Positions 2,859 through 11,752 of a stretch of DNA of 64,000 nt are shown here, one piece after another. The stretch is taken from contig JAJPIS010000058.1 in assembly GCA_021324635.1 (NCBI GenBank), forward strand, positions 1 to 64,000, written 5' to 3'. Position 1 is the stretch's first letter. The number at the start of each line of letters is the position of its first letter. The notes beneath the pieces were generated by a model. That model had not been told where the DNA came from, searched no databases, and was given only the letters and a program-made list of their open reading frames with translations. A program made the position numbers and the translations under genes. This DNA is from Gemmatimonadota bacterium (GTDB lineage: Bacteria > Gemmatimonadota > Gemmatimonadetes > Gemmatimonadales > Gemmatimonadaceae).

Positions 2859-4153
2859 TGGCGGTCACGAGACGGCAGTTCCTGGCAACCGCCGCGGCCG
2901 CGATGCTGGCCGGCCCGCGCGCCGGCGGACAGCGGTGGTGGCGCCGGCTGGACGGGCACCTCCTCGTGCCGATGGACGATGACCAGCAGAACCATCTCAA
3001 GGCGTACGGCCTCACCTACAACGCGCTCCACGACGGACTCCGCGGCGAATGGCTGTTGAACTACCGCGGTGGCTCGTTCCTGCTGCCCGATACGCCCGAC
3101 CTCCGGCGTCGGGCGGCGCTCGACGGGATCACGGTCCAGCCGATCGACGACGCGGCCCTCGCCGGGGCGCGGGCCGAGATCGCGGGGGCGAACATGGATT
3201 CGGTGCCGCTGGAGAAGGCGCCGACGATCGCCATCTACAAGCCGCCGACCTCCCCGCCGTGGGATGACGCGGTGACGCTCGCGGTGCAGTATGCCGGGAT
3301 CCCGTTCACGCAGGTCTGGGACGACGACGTCCTGGGTGGGAACCTGGCCAAGTACGACTGGGTCCACCTCCATCATGAGGATTTCACCGGCCAGTTCAAC
3401 AAGTTGTACCTGAACTACCGGGGCGCGCCCTGGTTCAACGAGCAGGTGATTCGCGACATGGACACGGCCCGCCGCCACGGGGCGCCGAACGTGCCGGCGC
3501 TGAAGAAGCAGGTCGCCGAAGGGATCCGGAGCTTCGTCGAGCGCGGCGGGCTCCTGTTCGCGATGTGCGGCGCCACGGAGACGCTCGATCTCGCGATCGC
3601 GGGGCGGAACGTCGACATTGCCAGCGTCTTCTCCGACGGGTCGCCGATGGACCCCAATGCCGACGCCAAGATGGACTGGGCCCGCGCACTAGCGTTCCGT
3701 GGCGCGCACCTCGAGATGTCGCCGAGCATCAACTCGATGAGCGACATCGATGGCCACCAGGTGAACGTCCCGTCCCGCAAGCAGCCGCTCGGCGTCGTCA
3801 CGCTGTTCGCCTTCTCGGCCAAGTTCGATCCGGTGGCGACGATGCTGGTGCAGGACCACCGAACCGTCATCCCCGACTTCTACGGCGTGACCACCAGCTT
3901 CACCAAGGCGACGCTCAAGCCGACCGACGTCGTCCTCGCCTATGAGGAAGGGGCGCCGTGGGTGAAGTACATTCACGGGGACTACGGCAAGGGGTCGTGG
4001 ACGTTTCTGGGGGGACACGATCCCGAGGACCCGCAGCACGCAGTCGGCAATCCCTCGACCGACCTGTCACTCCACCCGAATTCGCCGGGGTACCGCCTGA
4101 TCCTGAACAACGTGCTCTTCCCGGCCGCGAAGAAGAAGCCGCTCAAGACGTGA
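2858..4153 (+). CDS. Tat-exported protein with GATase1-like features, of the family often labelled asparagine synthetase B
   Basis: 431 residues; ATG 2858 overlaps the upstream TGA by one base. The N-terminus TRRQFLATAAAA is a twin-arginine signal, so export of a folded protein is expected. The mature part starts with LVPMDDDQQNHLKAYG, followed by NYRGGSF near residue 70. A GLLFAMCGATETLD segment (about residue 230) and WTFLGGHDPED near the end resemble class I glutamine-amidotransferase or ThuA-like folds. As far as I recall, relatives in Gemmatimonadota and Bacteroidota are often named asparagine synthetase B, but no N-terminal-nucleophile or ATP-pyrophosphatase domain of AsnB is visible, so that name looks wrong. 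It sits between the TPR protein and the DinG helicase. The biochemical role is unknown. Confidence 0.55.
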   Translation: MAVTRRQFLATAAAAMLAGPRAGGQRWWRRLDGHLLVPMDDDQQNHLKAYGLTYNALHDGLRGEWLLNYRGGSFLLPDTPDLRRRAALDGITVQPIDDAALAGARAEIAGANMDSVPLEKAPTIAIYKPPTSPPWDDAVTLAVQYAGIPFTQVWDDDVLGGNLAKYDWVHLHHEDFTGQFNKLYLNYRGAPWFNEQVIRDMDTARRHGAPNVPALKKQVAEGIRSFVERGGLLFAMCGATETLDLAIAGRNVDIASVFSDGSPMDPNADAKMDWARALAFRGAHLEMSPSINSMSDIDGHQVNVPSRKQPLGVVTLFAFSAKFDPVATMLVQDHRTVIPDFYGVTTSFTKATLKPTDVVLAYEEGAPWVKYIHGDYGKGSWTFLGGHDPEDPQHAVGNPSTDLSLHPNSPGYRLILNNVLFPAAKKKPLKT

Positions 4154-6648
4154 TCGACTTTCCGCCCGGCGTTGCCCTCGCGGACGGGGCGGCCGACACG
4201 CCCACGCACTCGGCGCTCTCCCATCGGGAGCCGTTCGACGCCGACGGGGCGGGGGACGGCGGGCCCGACGACGAGCTCGACGACGGGCTCGACGACGTCG
4301 GTCCCGTTCGCCGGCGTTCCGACGATCCGGACGCGGGGCCCCGGCTCGACGCAGACCACATCGCGCGCGACATGGGCCCGGACGGCCCGATCGCCGCAGC
4401 GTTCGGCCGGGCAGGGGGCGAGGCCGGGGAAGGCCCGCCGGCGGCGGCCGAGGATGCCGCCGAGGGTCATCGGTCGCGCTACGAGGACCGCGAGAGTCAG
4501 CGTGCGATGGCGGTCACCATCGCGCGTCTCTACAACGCTGGCGGGATCGCCCTCCTCGAGGCCGGCACCGGCGTCGGCAAGTCGCTCGCCTATCTCCTCC
4601 CGGCGCTGCGCTGGGCCGCCGCCCGCGGGGAGCGGACCGTCGTCTCGACGAACACGATCAATCTCCAGGAGCAGTTGGTCGGAAAGGACCTGCCACTCCT
4701 CGCCTCCGCCCTGGCGGACCAGCCGGTGCGCTTCGCCCTCCTCAAAGGGTGGCGGAACTACGTGTGCCTCCATCGCCTCGAGCACGCGCGGGGCGGCGGG
4801 TCCGCCCTCTTCGACGCCGAGGCCGAGGGGGAGCTCGAGGCGGTGGCGGCGTGGGCACGCGAGACCGCGGACGGGTCGGTCGCCGACCTGCCGGCCCCGC
4901 CGCCCCGGCCCGAGGTATGGGACGAGGTCGCGGCCGAGCCGGATCTCTGCCTGCGCCAGCGCTGCCCGCACTTCGACGGGTGCTTCGTCTTTCGCGCGCG
5001 CCGCGCGGCCGCCCAGGCCGACATCGTCGTCGTCAATCATCACCTCCTCATGTCCGACGTGGCGGTTCGGCGCGTCCAGCAGAACTGGCGGGAGGCGGCG
5101 GTCATCCCGGCGTACACACGGCTCGTGGTCGACGAAGGTCATCACCTCGAGGAGGCGGCGGCGGCACACCTGGGCGGCACGGTGACCCGCCGCGGCTGGC
5201 AGCGCCTGTTCGCGCGGCTCGACCGACGGGGTGGGAAAGGGCTCCTCGCTCGGCTCTCCTCGACGCTCGCCGCCATGGACGATTTGCTCGCCGCCGCTAC
5301 CGTCGATCTCGTCCGGACGAACCTGCTGCCGGCCGTCAGCGCCGTCCACGATCGCGGCGAGCTCGCGTTCGACCTGCTGGCGACGCTGTTCCGTGACAGC
5401 GACGAGCCACAGCGCCGCCTCACCGACGCCTTCGCGCAGCATCCCATCTGGCCGGGCGGGCTCGGCGCGGCGCTCGAGGACGTGCTCCTCGGGCTCACCG
5501 CGATCCACGACGCGCTTCGGCTCATTCAGGAGCGACATGGGGGCGACCAGTTGGCCGAGGAGCCGCTCGCCCGCGTGCTCGCCGAGCTACGGGGCGTGGC
5601 TCGCCGGCTCGCGGGTGCGGCCGCGACGCTCCGCGATGCCCTGGCCCCCGCCCCCGACGCGGGCCCCATGGTGCGGTGGCTCGAGTTGCGGCGGACGGCA
5701 CGCGAGCGGGCGCGGGACGCCGACCGGCGGCGCGGGATCACCGGCGCCGATGGTCGCGACGGCGACTCCGCCGACCTGTCCGCCGTCAACCTCGCCGTCT
5801 GCGCGGTGCCGCTCGACCTCGCGCCGATCCTGCGCGAGGATCTGTTCAAGCGCGTCGATACGGCGGTGGTCACGAGCGCGACCCTCGCGACCGATGGCTG
5901 CTTCGATTTTCTGGCCTCCCGCCTCGGCGTCGATACGCCCGACGCGCGCGCGTCGACGCGCGTCTTCCCCTCGCCCTTCGACTATCGCCGGCAGGCGCTG
6001 CTCGCGATCCCCACCGATGTGCCACCCCCGAACGTCGATGCGGCGGGACATGGCACCGCCCTCGTCACGATCGTCCGGGACGTCACGCACGCGGCGGGCG
6101 GTGGCATCTTCGTGCTGTTCACGAGTCACCGCGACGTGCGGGCGACGGCGGCCGCCCTCCGCGCGGATCGGCGACTCGCCGGGCCCGGCGAGCTCCTGGT
6201 GCACGGCGAGGACGCACGCGACGGACTGCTCCGTCGATTCCGCGCGGCCGGCGACGCCGTGCTCCTCGGCACGGCCTCGTTCTGGGAGGGCGTCGACGTG
6301 CCCGGCCGCGCGCTGCGCGGACTCATCATCGCGCGCCTGCCTTTTCGGGTGCCGACCGAGCCGGTGACGGCCGCGCAGTGCGAGCGCATCGCCGCCGACG
6401 GGGGAGATCCGTTCGGCGAGTTCATGGTGCCGCAAGCGTCGCTCCGCCTCAAGCAGGGCTTCGGCCGCCTCATCCGATCGTCCACGGACCGCGGGGTCGT
6501 CGTCATCGCCGACCCGCGCATCGCGACCAAACCGTACGGGCGCGCGCTTCTCGCCTCGCTCCCTCCTGCTCGCCGCATCGGCGCGCCCTGGGCCAGACTG
6601 CGCTCGGAGATCGCCGCGTTCTACCACGCTGACCACGGGGTGTCATGA
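4150..6648 (+). CDS. dinG: DinG/XPD-type ATP-dependent DNA helicase
   Basis: 832 residues from GTG 4150, which overlaps the previous stop by 4 bp (GTGA). Walker A is AGTGVGKS (residues 138-145) and the motif II box is DEGH (328-331). Between them lie cysteines in the arrangement of the iron-sulfur domain (NYVC, then LCLRQRC and DGC), which points to a 4Fe-4S helicase of the DinG/XPD group. Later come a VTSATL motif, TASFWEGVDVPG and QGFGRLIRS (from residue 769), which are the C-terminal helicase motifs. The first 110 or so residues are acidic and poorly ordered and are not part of the conserved core. Such enzymes unwind 5'-3' and act on R-loops or damaged replication intermediates. An upstream in-frame start exists, but the overlap favours 4150. 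Confidence 0.88.
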   Translation: MIDFPPGVALADGAADTPTHSALSHREPFDADGAGDGGPDDELDDGLDDVGPVRRRSDDPDAGPRLDADHIARDMGPDGPIAAAFGRAGGEAGEGPPAAAEDAAEGHRSRYEDRESQRAMAVTIARLYNAGGIALLEAGTGVGKSLAYLLPALRWAAARGERTVVSTNTINLQEQLVGKDLPLLASALADQPVRFALLKGWRNYVCLHRLEHARGGGSALFDAEAEGELEAVAAWARETADGSVADLPAPPPRPEVWDEVAAEPDLCLRQRCPHFDGCFVFRARRAAAQADIVVVNHHLLMSDVAVRRVQQNWREAAVIPAYTRLVVDEGHHLEEAAAAHLGGTVTRRGWQRLFARLDRRGGKGLLARLSSTLAAMDDLLAAATVDLVRTNLLPAVSAVHDRGELAFDLLATLFRDSDEPQRRLTDAFAQHPIWPGGLGAALEDVLLGLTAIHDALRLIQERHGGDQLAEEPLARVLAELRGVARRLAGAAATLRDALAPAPDAGPMVRWLELRRTARERARDADRRRGITGADGRDGDSADLSAVNLAVCAVPLDLAPILREDLFKRVDTAVVTSATLATDGCFDFLASRLGVDTPDARASTRVFPSPFDYRRQALLAIPTDVPPPNVDAAGHGTALVTIVRDVTHAAGGGIFVLFTSHRDVRATAAALRADRRLAGPGELLVHGEDARDGLLRRFRAAGDAVLLGTASFWEGVDVPGRALRGLIIARLPFRVPTEPVTAAQCERIAADGGDPFGEFMVPQASLRLKQGFGRLIRSSTDRGVVVIADPRIATKPYGRALLASLPPARRIGAPWARLRSEIAAFYHADHGVS

Positions 6649-7277
6649 GCGTCCGTCCGTCGAAGATCATCGGCGTGGGTCGGAACTACGCCGCGCACGC
6701 CGCCGAGCTGGGGAACGATGTCCCCGCGGCCCCGCTCCTCTTTCTCAAGCCGCCATCGTGCCTGATCGCGGACGGCGCGACGATCCGCCTGCCGGCGGCC
6801 TCGCACCGCGTCGAATTCGAGGGCGAGATCGGCATCGTGATCGGTGCCCGGGTGCGCGATGCCGCCGAGGCGAACGCGGGGCGGGCCGTACGGGGCATCG
6901 TCGCCTTCAACGACGTCACGGCGCGCGACATCCAGCGGGCCGAAAGCCAGTGGACACGCGCCAAGGGGTTCGACACGTTCGGCCCGAGCGGGCCCGAGCA
7001 TCCCTACCGCGGGGCGTGGGGCGACCTGTCGTTGCTGACGCGCGTCAACGGCGTCGAGCGGCAGCGTGCACGGGCCGATCTCATGGTCTTTCCGATCCCC
7101 CGGCTGGTCGCCTACATCTCGGCGATCATGACGCTCGAGCCCGGAGACATCATCGCGACCGGCACACCGGCCGGGGTCGGGCCGCTCGTTCCCGGCGACA
7201 TCGTCGAAGTCGAGGTGCAAGGCCCCGACGGCCGCGTCCTGAGCCGCGTCGGGAACCCGGTCGCGTCAGGCGAGTAA
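6645..7277 (+). CDS. Fumarylacetoacetate hydrolase-family protein
   Basis: 210 residues; ATG 6645 overlaps the dinG stop by 4 bp. Family motifs are all present: VGRNYAAHAAELGN at the N-terminus, FEGEIGIVIG (metal-binding Glu pair), AFNDVTARDIQ, KGFDTFGPSGP and GDIIATGTPAGVGP. The length suits the short, single-domain branch that includes acylpyruvate hydrolases and oxaloacetate decarboxylases, which cleave or decarboxylate 2-oxo compounds with a divalent metal. The exact substrate cannot be read from sequence. Its placement between a helicase and an aminotransferase is typical of a loosely assembled housekeeping operon. Confidence 0.85.
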   Translation: MSVRPSKIIGVGRNYAAHAAELGNDVPAAPLLFLKPPSCLIADGATIRLPAASHRVEFEGEIGIVIGARVRDAAEANAGRAVRGIVAFNDVTARDIQRAESQWTRAKGFDTFGPSGPEHPYRGAWGDLSLLTRVNGVERQRARADLMVFPIPRLVAYISAIMTLEPGDIIATGTPAGVGPLVPGDIVEVEVQGPDGRVLSRVGNPVASGE

Positions 7278-7284
7278 GTAGCGT

Positions 7285-8472
7285 ATGCCAAGGCTGAGTC
7301 CGCGGTTCGCGGCCCTTCCCGAGTACATGCTGGCCGCGATCCCGCAGAAGAAGCGCGAGATGGTCGCCCGCGGCGTCGACGTCATCGATCTCGGCGCGGG
7401 GGACGCGGATCTCGCGCCGCCCGAGGCGGCCCTGACCGCGCTCGCCCGTGCCGCGGCCACTCCCGCGCTCAACCGCTATGGCTTCGGGCTCGGGCTCGTC
7501 GCTTTTCGCGAGGCTGTCGCGGCGTGGATGCACACCCGGTTTGGCCTCACGTTCGATCCCCTGCGGGAAGTGGTCCCGCTCATCGGCTCCAAGGAAGGGA
7601 TCGCCCACCTGGCCCTCGCGTACGTGCAGCGGGGGGACGTGACCATCGTGCCCGAGCCCGGCTACCCCGCGTACGTCGGCGGCACCGTGCTCGGCGACGC
7701 CACGCCCTATCGATTCCCCCTCCGGCCGCGGACCGACTTTCTGGTGGATCTGGACGAGATCCCGACCGATGTGCTGCGGCGGACCCGGATGCTGTACCTG
7801 AACTACCCCAACAACCCGACCGCGGCGATCGCACCGCGCGCGTATCTCGAGGAGGTGGTGCGCCGGTGTCGCGAGCTGGACGTGCTGCTCGTCTACGACA
7901 ACGCCTACTCCGAGCTCGCCTACGACGGGTACGTGCCGCCCAGCATCTTCGAGATCGACGGTGCGCGGGACGTCGCGATCGAGTTTCACTCGCTCTCGAA
8001 GACGTACAACCTGACGGGATGGCGTTGCGGCTGGGCGGTCGCCCGGCCGGAGATCGCCGGGGCCCTGGCGCGCGTGAAGTCGTTCGTCGACACCGGCCAG
8101 TTCATGGCCGTCCAGGCCGCGGGCGTCGCCGCGATCGAGAGCTGGCGCGAATTCGTGCCGCGCAACGTGGCGATCTTCCAGGAGCGGCGCGACGCCGCGG
8201 TGGCCGCGTTCCGCGATGCGGGCTTCGTCTGCCCGACGCCCAGAGCGGCCATGTATCTCTGGATCGAGCTGCCGGAGGGCCTGCCGAGCGCGACGTTCGC
8301 GGACCGACTGATGGACGACACCGGCGTCATCGTCATGCCGGGCTCGGCGTTCGGGGCGGGCGGTGAGGGCTTCTTCCGTGTATCCTTCATCGTGCCGCCA
8401 GAACGCCTGCGCGACGCCGCCGAGCGCGCGGGGCGGGTGCTCGCCTCGTTCGCTCATCCTGTCGCCCGATAG
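7285..8472 (+). CDS. PLP-dependent class I/II aminotransferase, LL-diaminopimelate aminotransferase-like
   Basis: 395 residues, 7 bp after the previous stop. It carries the fold-type I signature: YLNYPNNPTA (171-180), VYDNAYSELAYDG (203-215), and the PLP-binding lysine K239 in HSLSKTYNLTGWRCGW. The opening LPEYMLAAIPQKKREM and the DLGAGD segment are typical of the DapL/AlaC/aspartate aminotransferase group. An LL-diaminopimelate aminotransferase role (lysine and peptidoglycan precursor) is plausible, but AspC- or AlaC-like activity cannot be excluded. The next gene starts 15 bp downstream. Confidence 0.8.
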   Translation: MPRLSPRFAALPEYMLAAIPQKKREMVARGVDVIDLGAGDADLAPPEAALTALARAAATPALNRYGFGLGLVAFREAVAAWMHTRFGLTFDPLREVVPLIGSKEGIAHLALAYVQRGDVTIVPEPGYPAYVGGTVLGDATPYRFPLRPRTDFLVDLDEIPTDVLRRTRMLYLNYPNNPTAAIAPRAYLEEVVRRCRELDVLLVYDNAYSELAYDGYVPPSIFEIDGARDVAIEFHSLSKTYNLTGWRCGWAVARPEIAGALARVKSFVDTGQFMAVQAAGVAAIESWREFVPRNVAIFQERRDAAVAAFRDAGFVCPTPRAAMYLWIELPEGLPSATFADRLMDDTGVIVMPGSAFGAGGEGFFRVSFIVPPERLRDAAERAGRVLASFAHPVAR

Positions 8473-8487
8473 GCCAGTCGACGCTCC

Positions 8488-9372
8488 ATGACCGCGCAGA
8501 GCAAGCTCCGGGGCCGGCCCGAATCGCGACGCGCGCTCCTCGTCTCGATCGCGCTCCACGTCGTCATCGGGGCCGCGTTGATTCGGGTGCTGCTCATGCC
8601 GCTACCGCTGCGGGCGTGGCTGCACTTCGGCCAGGCTGCCCCGGTCGTCGAGGAGCACCTCCGGTTCGTCGAGACGCCTCAGGCCGGCACGCGGCCGACG
8701 CCCGCGCACCCGGGTGGCAACGGCATCCCCGCCCCGCGCACGCCCCCGCCGCCGCTCGTGGCGCCACCGGCCGTGCCCAACGCCCTCCCCGCGGCCCCGC
8801 CCGCAGCGCCCGCCAAGCCCAGTGAGCCGGCTGGCACCGGGCCGGTGGTCGGTACCGGCGGGCCGGCGCAGGGGGCGCGCCCGGAGTACCACGATGCGCG
8901 GGTCTGGGTCCCGGAAGCCCCGCCGGTCGCGAGCGCGCCCAAGTCGCTCGAGGAGCGGGTCGACAGCGCCATGCGGGCGAGCATCCGGGTGCACAACGAC
9001 TCGCTCGCCCTCGGCACACCGCGCCGGCAACCCGGCGACTGGACGTTCGAGCACAACGGGAAGAAGTACGGCATCGACCAGCAGTACATCCATCTCGGCC
9101 CGATCTCGATCCCGACGGCCGTGCTGGCCGCTCTCCCGCTCAACAACTTCCAGGGCAACCCGATCCTCGGCGCCAACGAGCGGCTGCTCGACGCCCGCGG
9201 CAACGATATCGCCTTCCAGGCGAACCGGGCCCTGAGCGAGGATGAGTTCCGCAAGGCGGTCAAGGAAGAGCGCCAGCGGAAGGAGCGCGAGCACGAGCAG
9301 CGCGCCCGCCAGCGCCAGCGCCCGTCCGATCAATCTCCCTCGACGCCCGTCGCCGCCAAGGACGGGACCTGA
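8488..9372 (+). CDS. TonB-like membrane-anchored proline-rich protein, no C-terminal TonB domain seen
   Basis: 294 residues. One N-terminal membrane segment (about residues 17-37, SIALHVVIGAALIRVLLM) resembles the anchor of TonB proteins. It is followed by a long Pro/Ala-rich stretch (about 65-115) suited to spanning the periplasm. The C-terminal part has a small ordered block around FEHNGKKYGIDQQYIHLG, then a strongly charged helical tail rich in Lys, Glu, Arg and Gln. The usual TonB C-terminal domain, with its YP motif, is not visible, so energy transduction is only a guess. The stop codon TGA 9370-9372 is the first of a set of repeated stops in the 11-bp array downstream. Confidence 0.55.
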   Translation: MTAQSKLRGRPESRRALLVSIALHVVIGAALIRVLLMPLPLRAWLHFGQAAPVVEEHLRFVETPQAGTRPTPAHPGGNGIPAPRTPPPPLVAPPAVPNALPAAPPAAPAKPSEPAGTGPVVGTGGPAQGARPEYHDARVWVPEAPPVASAPKSLEERVDSAMRASIRVHNDSLALGTPRRQPGDWTFEHNGKKYGIDQQYIHLGPISIPTAVLAALPLNNFQGNPILGANERLLDARGNDIAFQANRALSEDEFRKAVKEERQRKEREHEQRARQRQRPSDQSPSTPVAAKDGT

Positions 9373-9423
9373 GCCGCTCCTGAGCCGCTCCTGAGCCGCT
9401 CCTGAGCCGCTCCTGAGCCGCAG
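9369..9423. repeat. 11-bp tandem repeat seeded on a stop codon
   Basis: Five copies of CTGAGCCGCTC, the last ending in AG instead of TC, start on the stop codon of the TonB-like gene and run to the last base before the lexA stop. Each copy contains TGA, at 9370, 9381, 9392, 9403 and 9414. Because 11 is not a multiple of three, the stops fall in all three plus-strand frames. It fills the whole space between two convergent genes. No stem-loop terminator was seen. Confidence 0.9.
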
Positions 9424-10089
9424 CTAGGCCGCGTCCGACTCCGCGGTCTCTCGCACCTCGGCGTTCGTCTCGCCGTCGTAAAAGGCCCGGAAGACGCCGC
9501 AGATCACGCCAAGGATCGCAAAATTATCCTGCGGCCCGACGACGATCTCCCGCTCGGACGCGGTCGCCGGCTCGAGCACGATCGCCGCGCCCCGGTGCGT
9601 CAGCGTCCGCACGGTCGCATCGTCGCCGACGCGCGCCGCCACGATCTCCCCGTCGTGCGCGCGCGCGGACGGGTTGATGAGCACGTAGTCACCCTTGAAG
9701 ATGCCGCGCCCTTCCATGGTGTCGCCCTGAATGCGGAGGGCAAACACATCATCACTCGGCACGAACCGTCGGTCGAGCGTCAGGTATCCCTGCCGATGCT
9801 CGCTCAGGAGGGCGGGCTCACCGGCCGCGATCCGGCGGTAGATCGGCACCGGCTGGGTGCGGGCTGCCGCCGCGAAGCCGAGCAGGCGTACGCCGCGCGA
9901 GCGCGACGGATCCCGCTCGATGTAGCCTTTCTCCGCGAGCGACTGGAGGATGTCGGATACGGTCTTGGTAGATTTGATACGAAACCGTTTCCCGATCTCC
10001 CGAATGCTCGGCTGGTACGTGTTCTCCGCGAGAAAATCGAGCAGGTAGTGATAGACGCGGCGTTCGATGGGATTGAGCGGCTCAGCCAT
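9424..10089 (-). CDS. lexA: LexA-family SOS repressor with altered catalytic dyad
   Basis: 221 residues. The N-terminal winged helix-turn-helix (about 1-70) has the LexA layout: QPSIREIGKRF, then LAEKGYIERDPSRSRGVRLL. The C-terminal half is an S24-type domain with the self-cleavage site kept as A89-G90 in RIAAGEP. The nucleophile position is Thr124 (QGDTMEG; codon at 9718-9720 on the minus strand) where LexA normally has Ser. The general-base position is Arg161 (DATVRTL; codon 9607-9609) where LexA has Lys. Spacings (G90 to 124 is 34 residues, 124 to 161 is 37) equal those of E. coli LexA, so the alignment is secure. Self-cleavage may be lost, slow or differently triggered. The gene follows gltX in the same direction. 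No clear SOS box was found upstream. Confidence 0.88.
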   Translation of the reverse strand: MAEPLNPIERRVYHYLLDFLAENTYQPSIREIGKRFRIKSTKTVSDILQSLAEKGYIERDPSRSRGVRLLGFAAAARTQPVPIYRRIAAGEPALLSEHRQGYLTLDRRFVPSDDVFALRIQGDTMEGRGIFKGDYVLINPSARAHDGEIVAARVGDDATVRTLTHRGAAIVLEPATASEREIVVGPQDNFAILGVICGVFRAFYDGETNAEVRETAESDAA

Positions 10090-10285: not shown

Positions 10286-11752
10286 TCACCGCAGATGCCG
10301 AATTGCCGCATCGATTCTTGACAATGCCCTGTCGCGGCCGAGCAACACCAGAACGTCGAAGATACCGGGACTCACTGTAAGTCCCGTCAGCGCAACGCGA
10401 AGTGGCTGAAAGAGCTTGCCGGCGGCGATGGCACGAGATTCCGCGAGGGCGCGGAGCGCCGACTCCAGAGCCTCCGGGGTCCAGGACGGTGACGCCGCCA
10501 GCGCGTCGCGTGAGGCCTCGAGGAGGGCGGCCGAGGCGGCCGGGTCCTTCCACTGCTTGGCGACGGCCTCCGGGTCGTAGGTGATGGTCTCGCACAGGTA
10601 CGGCTCGGCCTGCCGGACGATGTCGTTGATCGTCCGCGCGCGAACGCGCAGGAGATCGACGAGCGCGGCGTACCACTCCGGCTGCGCGGCGAGTGCGTCG
10701 GCCGTGGTGAGGCCGGCGCGGACGAGCGCGGGAGTCACGCGCGGGAGCAGCTCGCCGAGCGGCATCATCGACAGGTGTTGCCCGTTCATCCACTCGAGTT
10801 TCTGCGGATCGAACACGGCCGCCTTGCGCTGGAGCCCGCCCGGCCCGAACAGCTCGACCATCTCGGGGAGGGTCATGATCTCGCGGTCGCCCCCGGGTGA
10901 CCATCCCAGCAGGGCGAGAAAGTTGAGCATCGCGGTCGGCAGAATGCCCTGGCCCTGGTAGTCCGCGACCGCGGTCGCCCCGTGGCGTTTGCTCAGCTTC
11001 TTCCCATCGGTCCCATGAATCATCGGCAGGTGGGCGAAGCCGGGGACGTCGGCGCCGAGTGCGCGGTAGAGCAGGATCTGCTTCGGCGTGTTCGAGATGT
11101 GATCGTCGCCACGCATCACGAGGGTCACCCGCATCGCGATGTCGTCGGACACGACGGCCATGTTGTACACCGGCGTGGCGTCGGACCGGAGGACGACGAA
11201 GTCCTCGATGTCCTTGTTGGGGAAAGCGATTCGCCCGTGAACGAGATCGTCCCACTCGATCGTGCCGGCGGGGACGCGGAACCGGATCGCGTAGGGCATT
11301 CCGGCCGCGACACGGCGTTCCACGTCGTCGACCGGCAGCCGGTCGCAGCGCCGATCGTAGCGGAACGTCTCCCGCCGTGCCTCGGCGGCCGCGCGCCGCT
11401 CGTCGAGCTCCTCGGGCGTGCAGAAGCATCGGTATGCCGCCCCGGCCGCGAGCAATCGCTCGCCGTCGCGCCGATGGCGCTCGAGGTTGGCCCCCTGGTA
11501 CACGACCTCCTCGTCCCAGGTGAGCCCCAGCCACTGGAGTCCCTCGAAGATCGCCCTGGTCGACGCCTCGGTGCTGCGCGCCCGATCGGTGTCCTCGATG
11601 CGGAGGAGGAACTGGCCCCCCGTGTGTCGGGCGTAGAGCCAGTTGAACAGCGCCGTCCGCGCGCCGCCGACATGGAGATACCCGGTGGGCGAGGGTGCGA
11701 AGCGGAGCCGCGGCCGGACGGGGGCGTCGGATGTCGCGGAGGGATCAGGCAT
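10286..11752 (-). CDS. gltX: Glutamyl-tRNA synthetase
   Basis: 488 residues, the usual length. The HIGH-type signature is in FAPSPTGYLHVGGARTALFN (residues 18-37) and the KMSKS-type loop is KKLSKRHG (251-258). RIEDTDRARS and LTWDEEV are typical of GluRS. The enzyme charges tRNA-Glu (in some lineages also tRNA-Gln) with glutamate in the cytoplasm. ATG at 11752 lies just downstream of the terminator that follows tRNA-Ser(GCU), so gltX should have its own promoter in the 40-bp gap, although none is convincing. lexA follows after 196 bp in the same direction. Confidence 0.95.
   Translation of the reverse strand: MPDPSATSDAPVRPRLRFAPSPTGYLHVGGARTALFNWLYARHTGGQFLLRIEDTDRARSTEASTRAIFEGLQWLGLTWDEEVVYQGANLERHRRDGERLLAAGAAYRCFCTPEELDERRAAAEARRETFRYDRRCDRLPVDDVERRVAAGMPYAIRFRVPAGTIEWDDLVHGRIAFPNKDIEDFVVLRSDATPVYNMAVVSDDIAMRVTLVMRGDDHISNTPKQILLYRALGADVPGFAHLPMIHGTDGKKLSKRHGATAVADYQGQGILPTAMLNFLALLGWSPGGDREIMTLPEMVELFGPGGLQRKAAVFDPQKLEWMNGQHLSMMPLGELLPRVTPALVRAGLTTADALAAQPEWYAALVDLLRVRARTINDIVRQAEPYLCETITYDPEAVAKQWKDPAASAALLEASRDALAASPSWTPEALESALRALAESRAIAAGKLFQPLRVALTGLTVSPGIFDVLVLLGRDRALSRIDAAIRHLR

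Follow-up and report, generated by a model that had tools for sequence, protein, structure and literature searches.

A divergent second LexA of Gemmatimonadaceae with a replaced Ser–Lys dyad, in a genome whose SOS response probably runs through a canonical LexA

Self-cleavage is the switch of LexA, the textbook case of a repressor controlled in this way, and the gene at positions 9424–10089 of the DNA analysed here raises the question of what has become of that switch when both of its catalytic residues are replaced. The DNA, called the window below, comprises the initial 64 kb (64,000 nucleotides) of contig C17 in the 4.09-Mb genome of a soil bacterium of the Gemmatimonadaceae. The gene, lexA2, lies on the minus strand, as do all parts of it given below, and encodes a LexA-family paralog of 221 residues. 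Its product scores 160.4 bits against the LexA equivalog model TIGR00498 (cut-off 110.95) and matches both the N-terminal LexA winged helix (PF01726, 56.2 bits) and the C-terminal S24 domain (PF00717, 87.7 bits). LexA structures are its best solved relatives, and LexA crystal structures are the closest matches to its AlphaFold model (mean pLDDT 86, pTM 0.60). The winged-helix DNA-binding domain occupies residues 1–72 (9874–10089) and is 97–99% identical to that of the congeners; the S24 fold, predicted with high confidence, spans residues 80–201 (9487–9852).

Alignment with E. coli LexA (S119, K156, A84-G85) puts Thr124 (ACC, 9718–9720) in the column of the nucleophile Ser119 and Arg161 (CGG, 9607–9609) in that of the general base Lys156. 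The Ser–Lys dyad of an active S24 peptidase, or of a cleavable LexA, is thus replaced. The Ala–Gly scissile bond of cleavable LexA proteins is present as Ala89–Gly90 (9820–9825), the equivalent of Ala84–Gly85. A sequence-only reading of the locus had identified the Thr and Arg codons, the retained cleavage site and DNA-binding domain, and intervals of 34 and 37 residues identical to those of E. coli LexA; the alignment and the PF01726 match bear it out on each of these points. Domain order, spacing and predicted fold are shared with the E. coli protein, from which LexA2 differs in its replaced dyad and in a SOS role that apparently lies with a separate LexA.

Read errors at 9718–9720 and 9607–9609, which would have undone that reading, are an unlikely source of the substitutions. 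Both congeners keep Ser and Lys, encoded by AGC and AAG, and ACC and CGG differ from these same-genus codons by one and two bases. Three base changes would thus be required, and the frame and the remainder of the protein are intact. The possibility that lexA2 is a functionless duplicate in decay is addressed by selection. Between the window and its congeners, dN/dS is 0.005–0.007 in the DNA-binding domain and 0.14–0.17 in the C-terminal domain (NG86, custom script; with synonymous sites near one change per site, the values are rough). Median values are 0.05 and 0.15 for dyad-less pairs, and 0.033 and 0.077 for pairs with Ser and Lys. The roughly twofold faster evolution of the C-terminal domain after dyad loss (0.15 vs 0.077) is what decay has in its favor. 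Against it stand the intact frame, ratios far below 1 in both domains, a near-invariant DNA-binding domain and a locus kept throughout the family. The DNA-binding domain of LexA2 is under extreme, and the C-terminal domain under moderate, purifying selection; this selection on both domains argues against a decaying gene as well as a read error, and makes decay extremely unlikely. An S24 domain that is relaxed yet held is the pattern expected if the domain serves dimerization rather than catalysis.

The window's genome holds two full LexA proteins. The sequence-only reading had advised a search for a second, canonical LexA, and one is found on the same contig, about 74 kb from lexA2, at C17:83755–84360. 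This protein, LexA1, scores 205.8 bits and carries the motifs GNSM (with the Ser), TVKR (with the Lys) and VAAG. Its presence rules out an SOS system that lacks a canonical LexA. An IS1595-type transposase gene lies about 0.3 kb upstream of the canonical lexA1 (L001 1967–2812, minus strand). LexA matches occur in 144 of 148 genomes of the family, most of which have two: one match is 40–84% identical to the window protein and the other, LexA1, about 33%. Genera g22 and g24 have LexA1 only. In a wider search of the phylum, matches of LexA2 grade were also found in four families of the class (f4, f5, f6 and f9); f2, a family of the same order, gave none, only matches of LexA1 grade.

In trees, the window protein groups with LexA2, apart from LexA1, and its gene stands beside gltX. 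The latter, which encodes glutamyl-tRNA synthetase (10286–11752, minus strand), is the conserved upstream neighbor on the same strand; it adjoins lexA2 in 144 of 152 loci, or in 127 of 133 distinct proteins. This synteny identifies LexA2 as one orthologous group. On the other side of lexA2, a conserved gene that is devoid of a Pfam match (about 8488–9372, plus strand) is convergent with it in 126 of the 152 loci. Between the two convergent genes of the window, directly past the lexA2 stop codon, lies a perfect 11-bp tandem repeat, CCTGAGCCGCT, of 4.9 copies (9368–9421). A conserved run on the plus strand (3946–8469) encodes a DinG/XPD-like helicase (Helicase_C_2), an FAA hydrolase and a class I/II aminotransferase, and recurs near many other lexA2 loci.

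The fate of the dyad within this group is revealed by a residue census of 118 distinct LexA2 proteins drawn from Gemmatimonadaceae and the sister group nearest to it. Ser, Lys and Ala–Gly are all present in 58, and three more combine Ser and Lys with an altered bond. The other 57, about half, are dyad-less, having lost Ser, Lys or both; among the f4 and f5 proteins sampled, the dyad is absent from 15 of 15. Arg is the usual replacement at the Lys position (51 proteins). The Ser is replaced by Ala, Asp (13 of 118), Gly, Glu and others, and Thr appears in the window protein only. Change near the window is piecemeal: Ser and Lys accompany Ala–Gly in G044, Ala–Thr in G017 and Pro–Ser in G007, and in the window Thr and Arg accompany Ala–Gly. 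With the four diagnostic columns left out of tree building, a tree of 106 rows requires at least 8 changes of dyad state, and a bootstrap tree of 87 rows 10. These changes are most simply taken as losses, since Ser and Lys are found both in LexA1, the outgroup, and in the f6 proteins, and the dyad appears to have been lost in at least 8–10 independent events. The sequence-only reading had asked whether Thr/Arg might be a pair typical of the clade; with Thr confined to the window and Ser/Lys in both congeners, it is not. What does characterize the clade is recurrent loss of the dyad.

A distribution of this kind also bears on whether Thr124 and Arg161 form a working alternative dyad, so that LexA2 still cleaves itself, perhaps more slowly. 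The scissile bond is kept, the spacing is perfect, Thr retains a hydroxyl group, and Arg is the usual substitute for Lys elsewhere in the clade. However, Arg is a poor general base, and outside the window its partner is mostly Ala, Gly, Asp, Glu or Arg, none of which offers a usable hydroxyl. Because these partners are mostly non-nucleophilic, Arg accompanies the loss of catalysis, and a working Thr/Arg dyad is improbable. Of the three possibilities raised by the earlier reading, a LexA that cleavage does not inactivate has the best support. The separate idea of a functional Thr/Arg pair typical of the clade has fallen. Slow cleavage of LexA2 at high pH is conceivable, because the Ala–Gly bond persists.

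Sites upstream of SOS genes point to LexA1 as their probable regulator. In 20 genomes, lexA1 is preceded by two exact or near-exact copies of a direct repeat, TTCGG-N6-TTCGG. Exact sites in the window's genome precede lexA1 and a small gene that is followed by genes for an ImuB-like protein and the error-prone polymerase DnaE2 (PRK05672, 979 bits); they are at C17:84428–84444 and C48:53694–53710 (genome G000), and the box is also present at loci L250 and L274. The small gene matched no family, and the name imuA is given to it here for its position and RecA-like sequence; imuA-imuB-dnaE2 is the usual SOS mutasome. A version with one mismatch, TTCGT-N6-TTCGG, precedes recA in all three congeners, and an exact box precedes ruvB in congener G044. 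No site occurs anywhere in the 64-kb window, and thus none precedes lexA2; a master repressor of the SOS response would have the box of the SOS genes before its own gene, as lexA1 does. From position and gene content, TTCGG-N6-TTCGG is probably the SOS box of Gemmatimonadaceae; no published SOS box for the phylum was found in the open-access literature searched. Since the box stands before lexA1, imuA-imuB-dnaE2, recA and, in a congener, ruvB, the SOS response of the window's organism probably runs through LexA1. A SOS response that differs from the usual one, as had been suggested from the replaced dyad, does not follow.

LexA2 might instead modulate the SOS response, by forming heterodimers with LexA1 or by competing for SOS boxes. 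The two proteins coexist and have the S24 fold in common, but they are only about 33% identical, and their recognition helices are strongly different (KSTKTVSDILQSL vs NSLATVHEHLSNL), from which different operators are to be expected. We therefore judge such modulation to be very improbable.

The best reading of the window's LexA2 is that of a non-cleavable or near-inactive pseudo-protease, retained to bind DNA as a dimer and no longer coupled to RecA. The protein probably still folds and dimerizes through its S24 domain, and its near-invariant winged helix would bind operators of its own. RecA filaments would fail to inactivate it through self-cleavage, or would do so only very slowly, and the separate, canonical LexA1 would run the SOS response. 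LexA2 might then act as a constitutive repressor, or be controlled by its level, by a ligand or modification, or by another protease. It is very likely that lexA2 is an old LexA paralog of the class Gemmatimonadetes that has lost autocleavage in the lineage of the window and left the SOS response to LexA1. For the wider proposal, that Gemmatimonadota harbor a group of LexA pseudo-proteases that are kept for DNA binding and dimerization, have left RecA and the SOS response repeatedly, and answer another signal with a regulon unlike that of SOS, the chances are about even.

The closest precedent is LexA of Synechocystis sp. PCC 6803, a regulator of non-SOS genes (PMC3091678, PMC4759255, PMC7567884). 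It too is a DNA-binding regulator with the LexA fold that has lost the catalytic Ser, and the Asp in its place recurs in 13 of the 118 LexA2 proteins of the census. In Synechocystis the bond has changed as well, to Gly–Gly, and these papers describe a single LexA; the window's LexA2, in contrast, keeps Ala–Gly, has lost the Lys too, and coexists with LexA1. LexA2 of Leptospira interrogans is likewise a second, divergent LexA with its own type of operator (PMC3789691). There, however, the dyad (Ser130/Lys166) is intact and the protein is depleted after UV; its gene lies in a prophage-like region and was probably acquired laterally (PMC3789691). The Gemmatimonadota case joins features of these two, a second LexA and a lost dyad. 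IrvR of Streptococcus mutans, which belongs to another lineage, resembles LexA2 in being LexA-like and is described as uncoupled from the RecA paradigm (PMC7101444). No paper that treats a LexA paralog with dyad loss in Gemmatimonadota was found in the open-access literature searched.

The main interest of LexA2 lies in repeated loss within one orthologous group rather than in the Thr/Arg pair itself. Intact and lost dyads (S/K vs T/R) occur in orthologs of a single genus that have near-identical DNA-binding domains, a natural experiment on the purpose of the self-cleavage switch and on how a repressor leaves the SOS response. The locus also illustrates that a LexA label assigned from family models alone does not imply an SOS regulator, and the analysis supplies a probable SOS box, TTCGG-N6-TTCGG, for the phylum.

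The spacing between gltX and lexA2 varies with the state of the dyad. The genes are less than 60 bp apart, and often overlap, in 30 of 60 dyad-less rows vs 1 of 34 rows with Ser and Lys; in many dyad-less lineages (loci L044–L074 and others) the gap is −8 to 45 bp, and in all 58 Ser/Lys copies it is at least 59 bp. Lost autoregulation was considered as a cause of dyad loss and set aside, because the gap counts are phylogenetically non-independent and the events few.

Operators of LexA2 were sought upstream of the genes that retain Ser and Lys. An EM search gave a palindrome, TGTACGNTANCGTACA, with a score of 70 vs about 28 in shuffles. After stricter removal of redundancy, a held-out test placed it before 5 of 26 genes with Ser and Lys, a share no better than the 3.6 of 18 obtained for dyad-less genes, and two of five cross-validation folds did not recover it. 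Genome searches with the palindrome gave counts at the control level or only modestly higher; three g5 genomes have a second exact site, which lies within a thymidine-kinase-like gene. With cross-validation failed, no conclusion is drawn from TGTACGNTANCGTACA as a LexA2 operator. A different palindrome, GTACG-N4-CGTAC, precedes lexA2, at about −80, in one genus and its close relatives (L027, L031, L033, L120, L121 and L127), where it is perhaps an autoregulatory site of local rather than general use.
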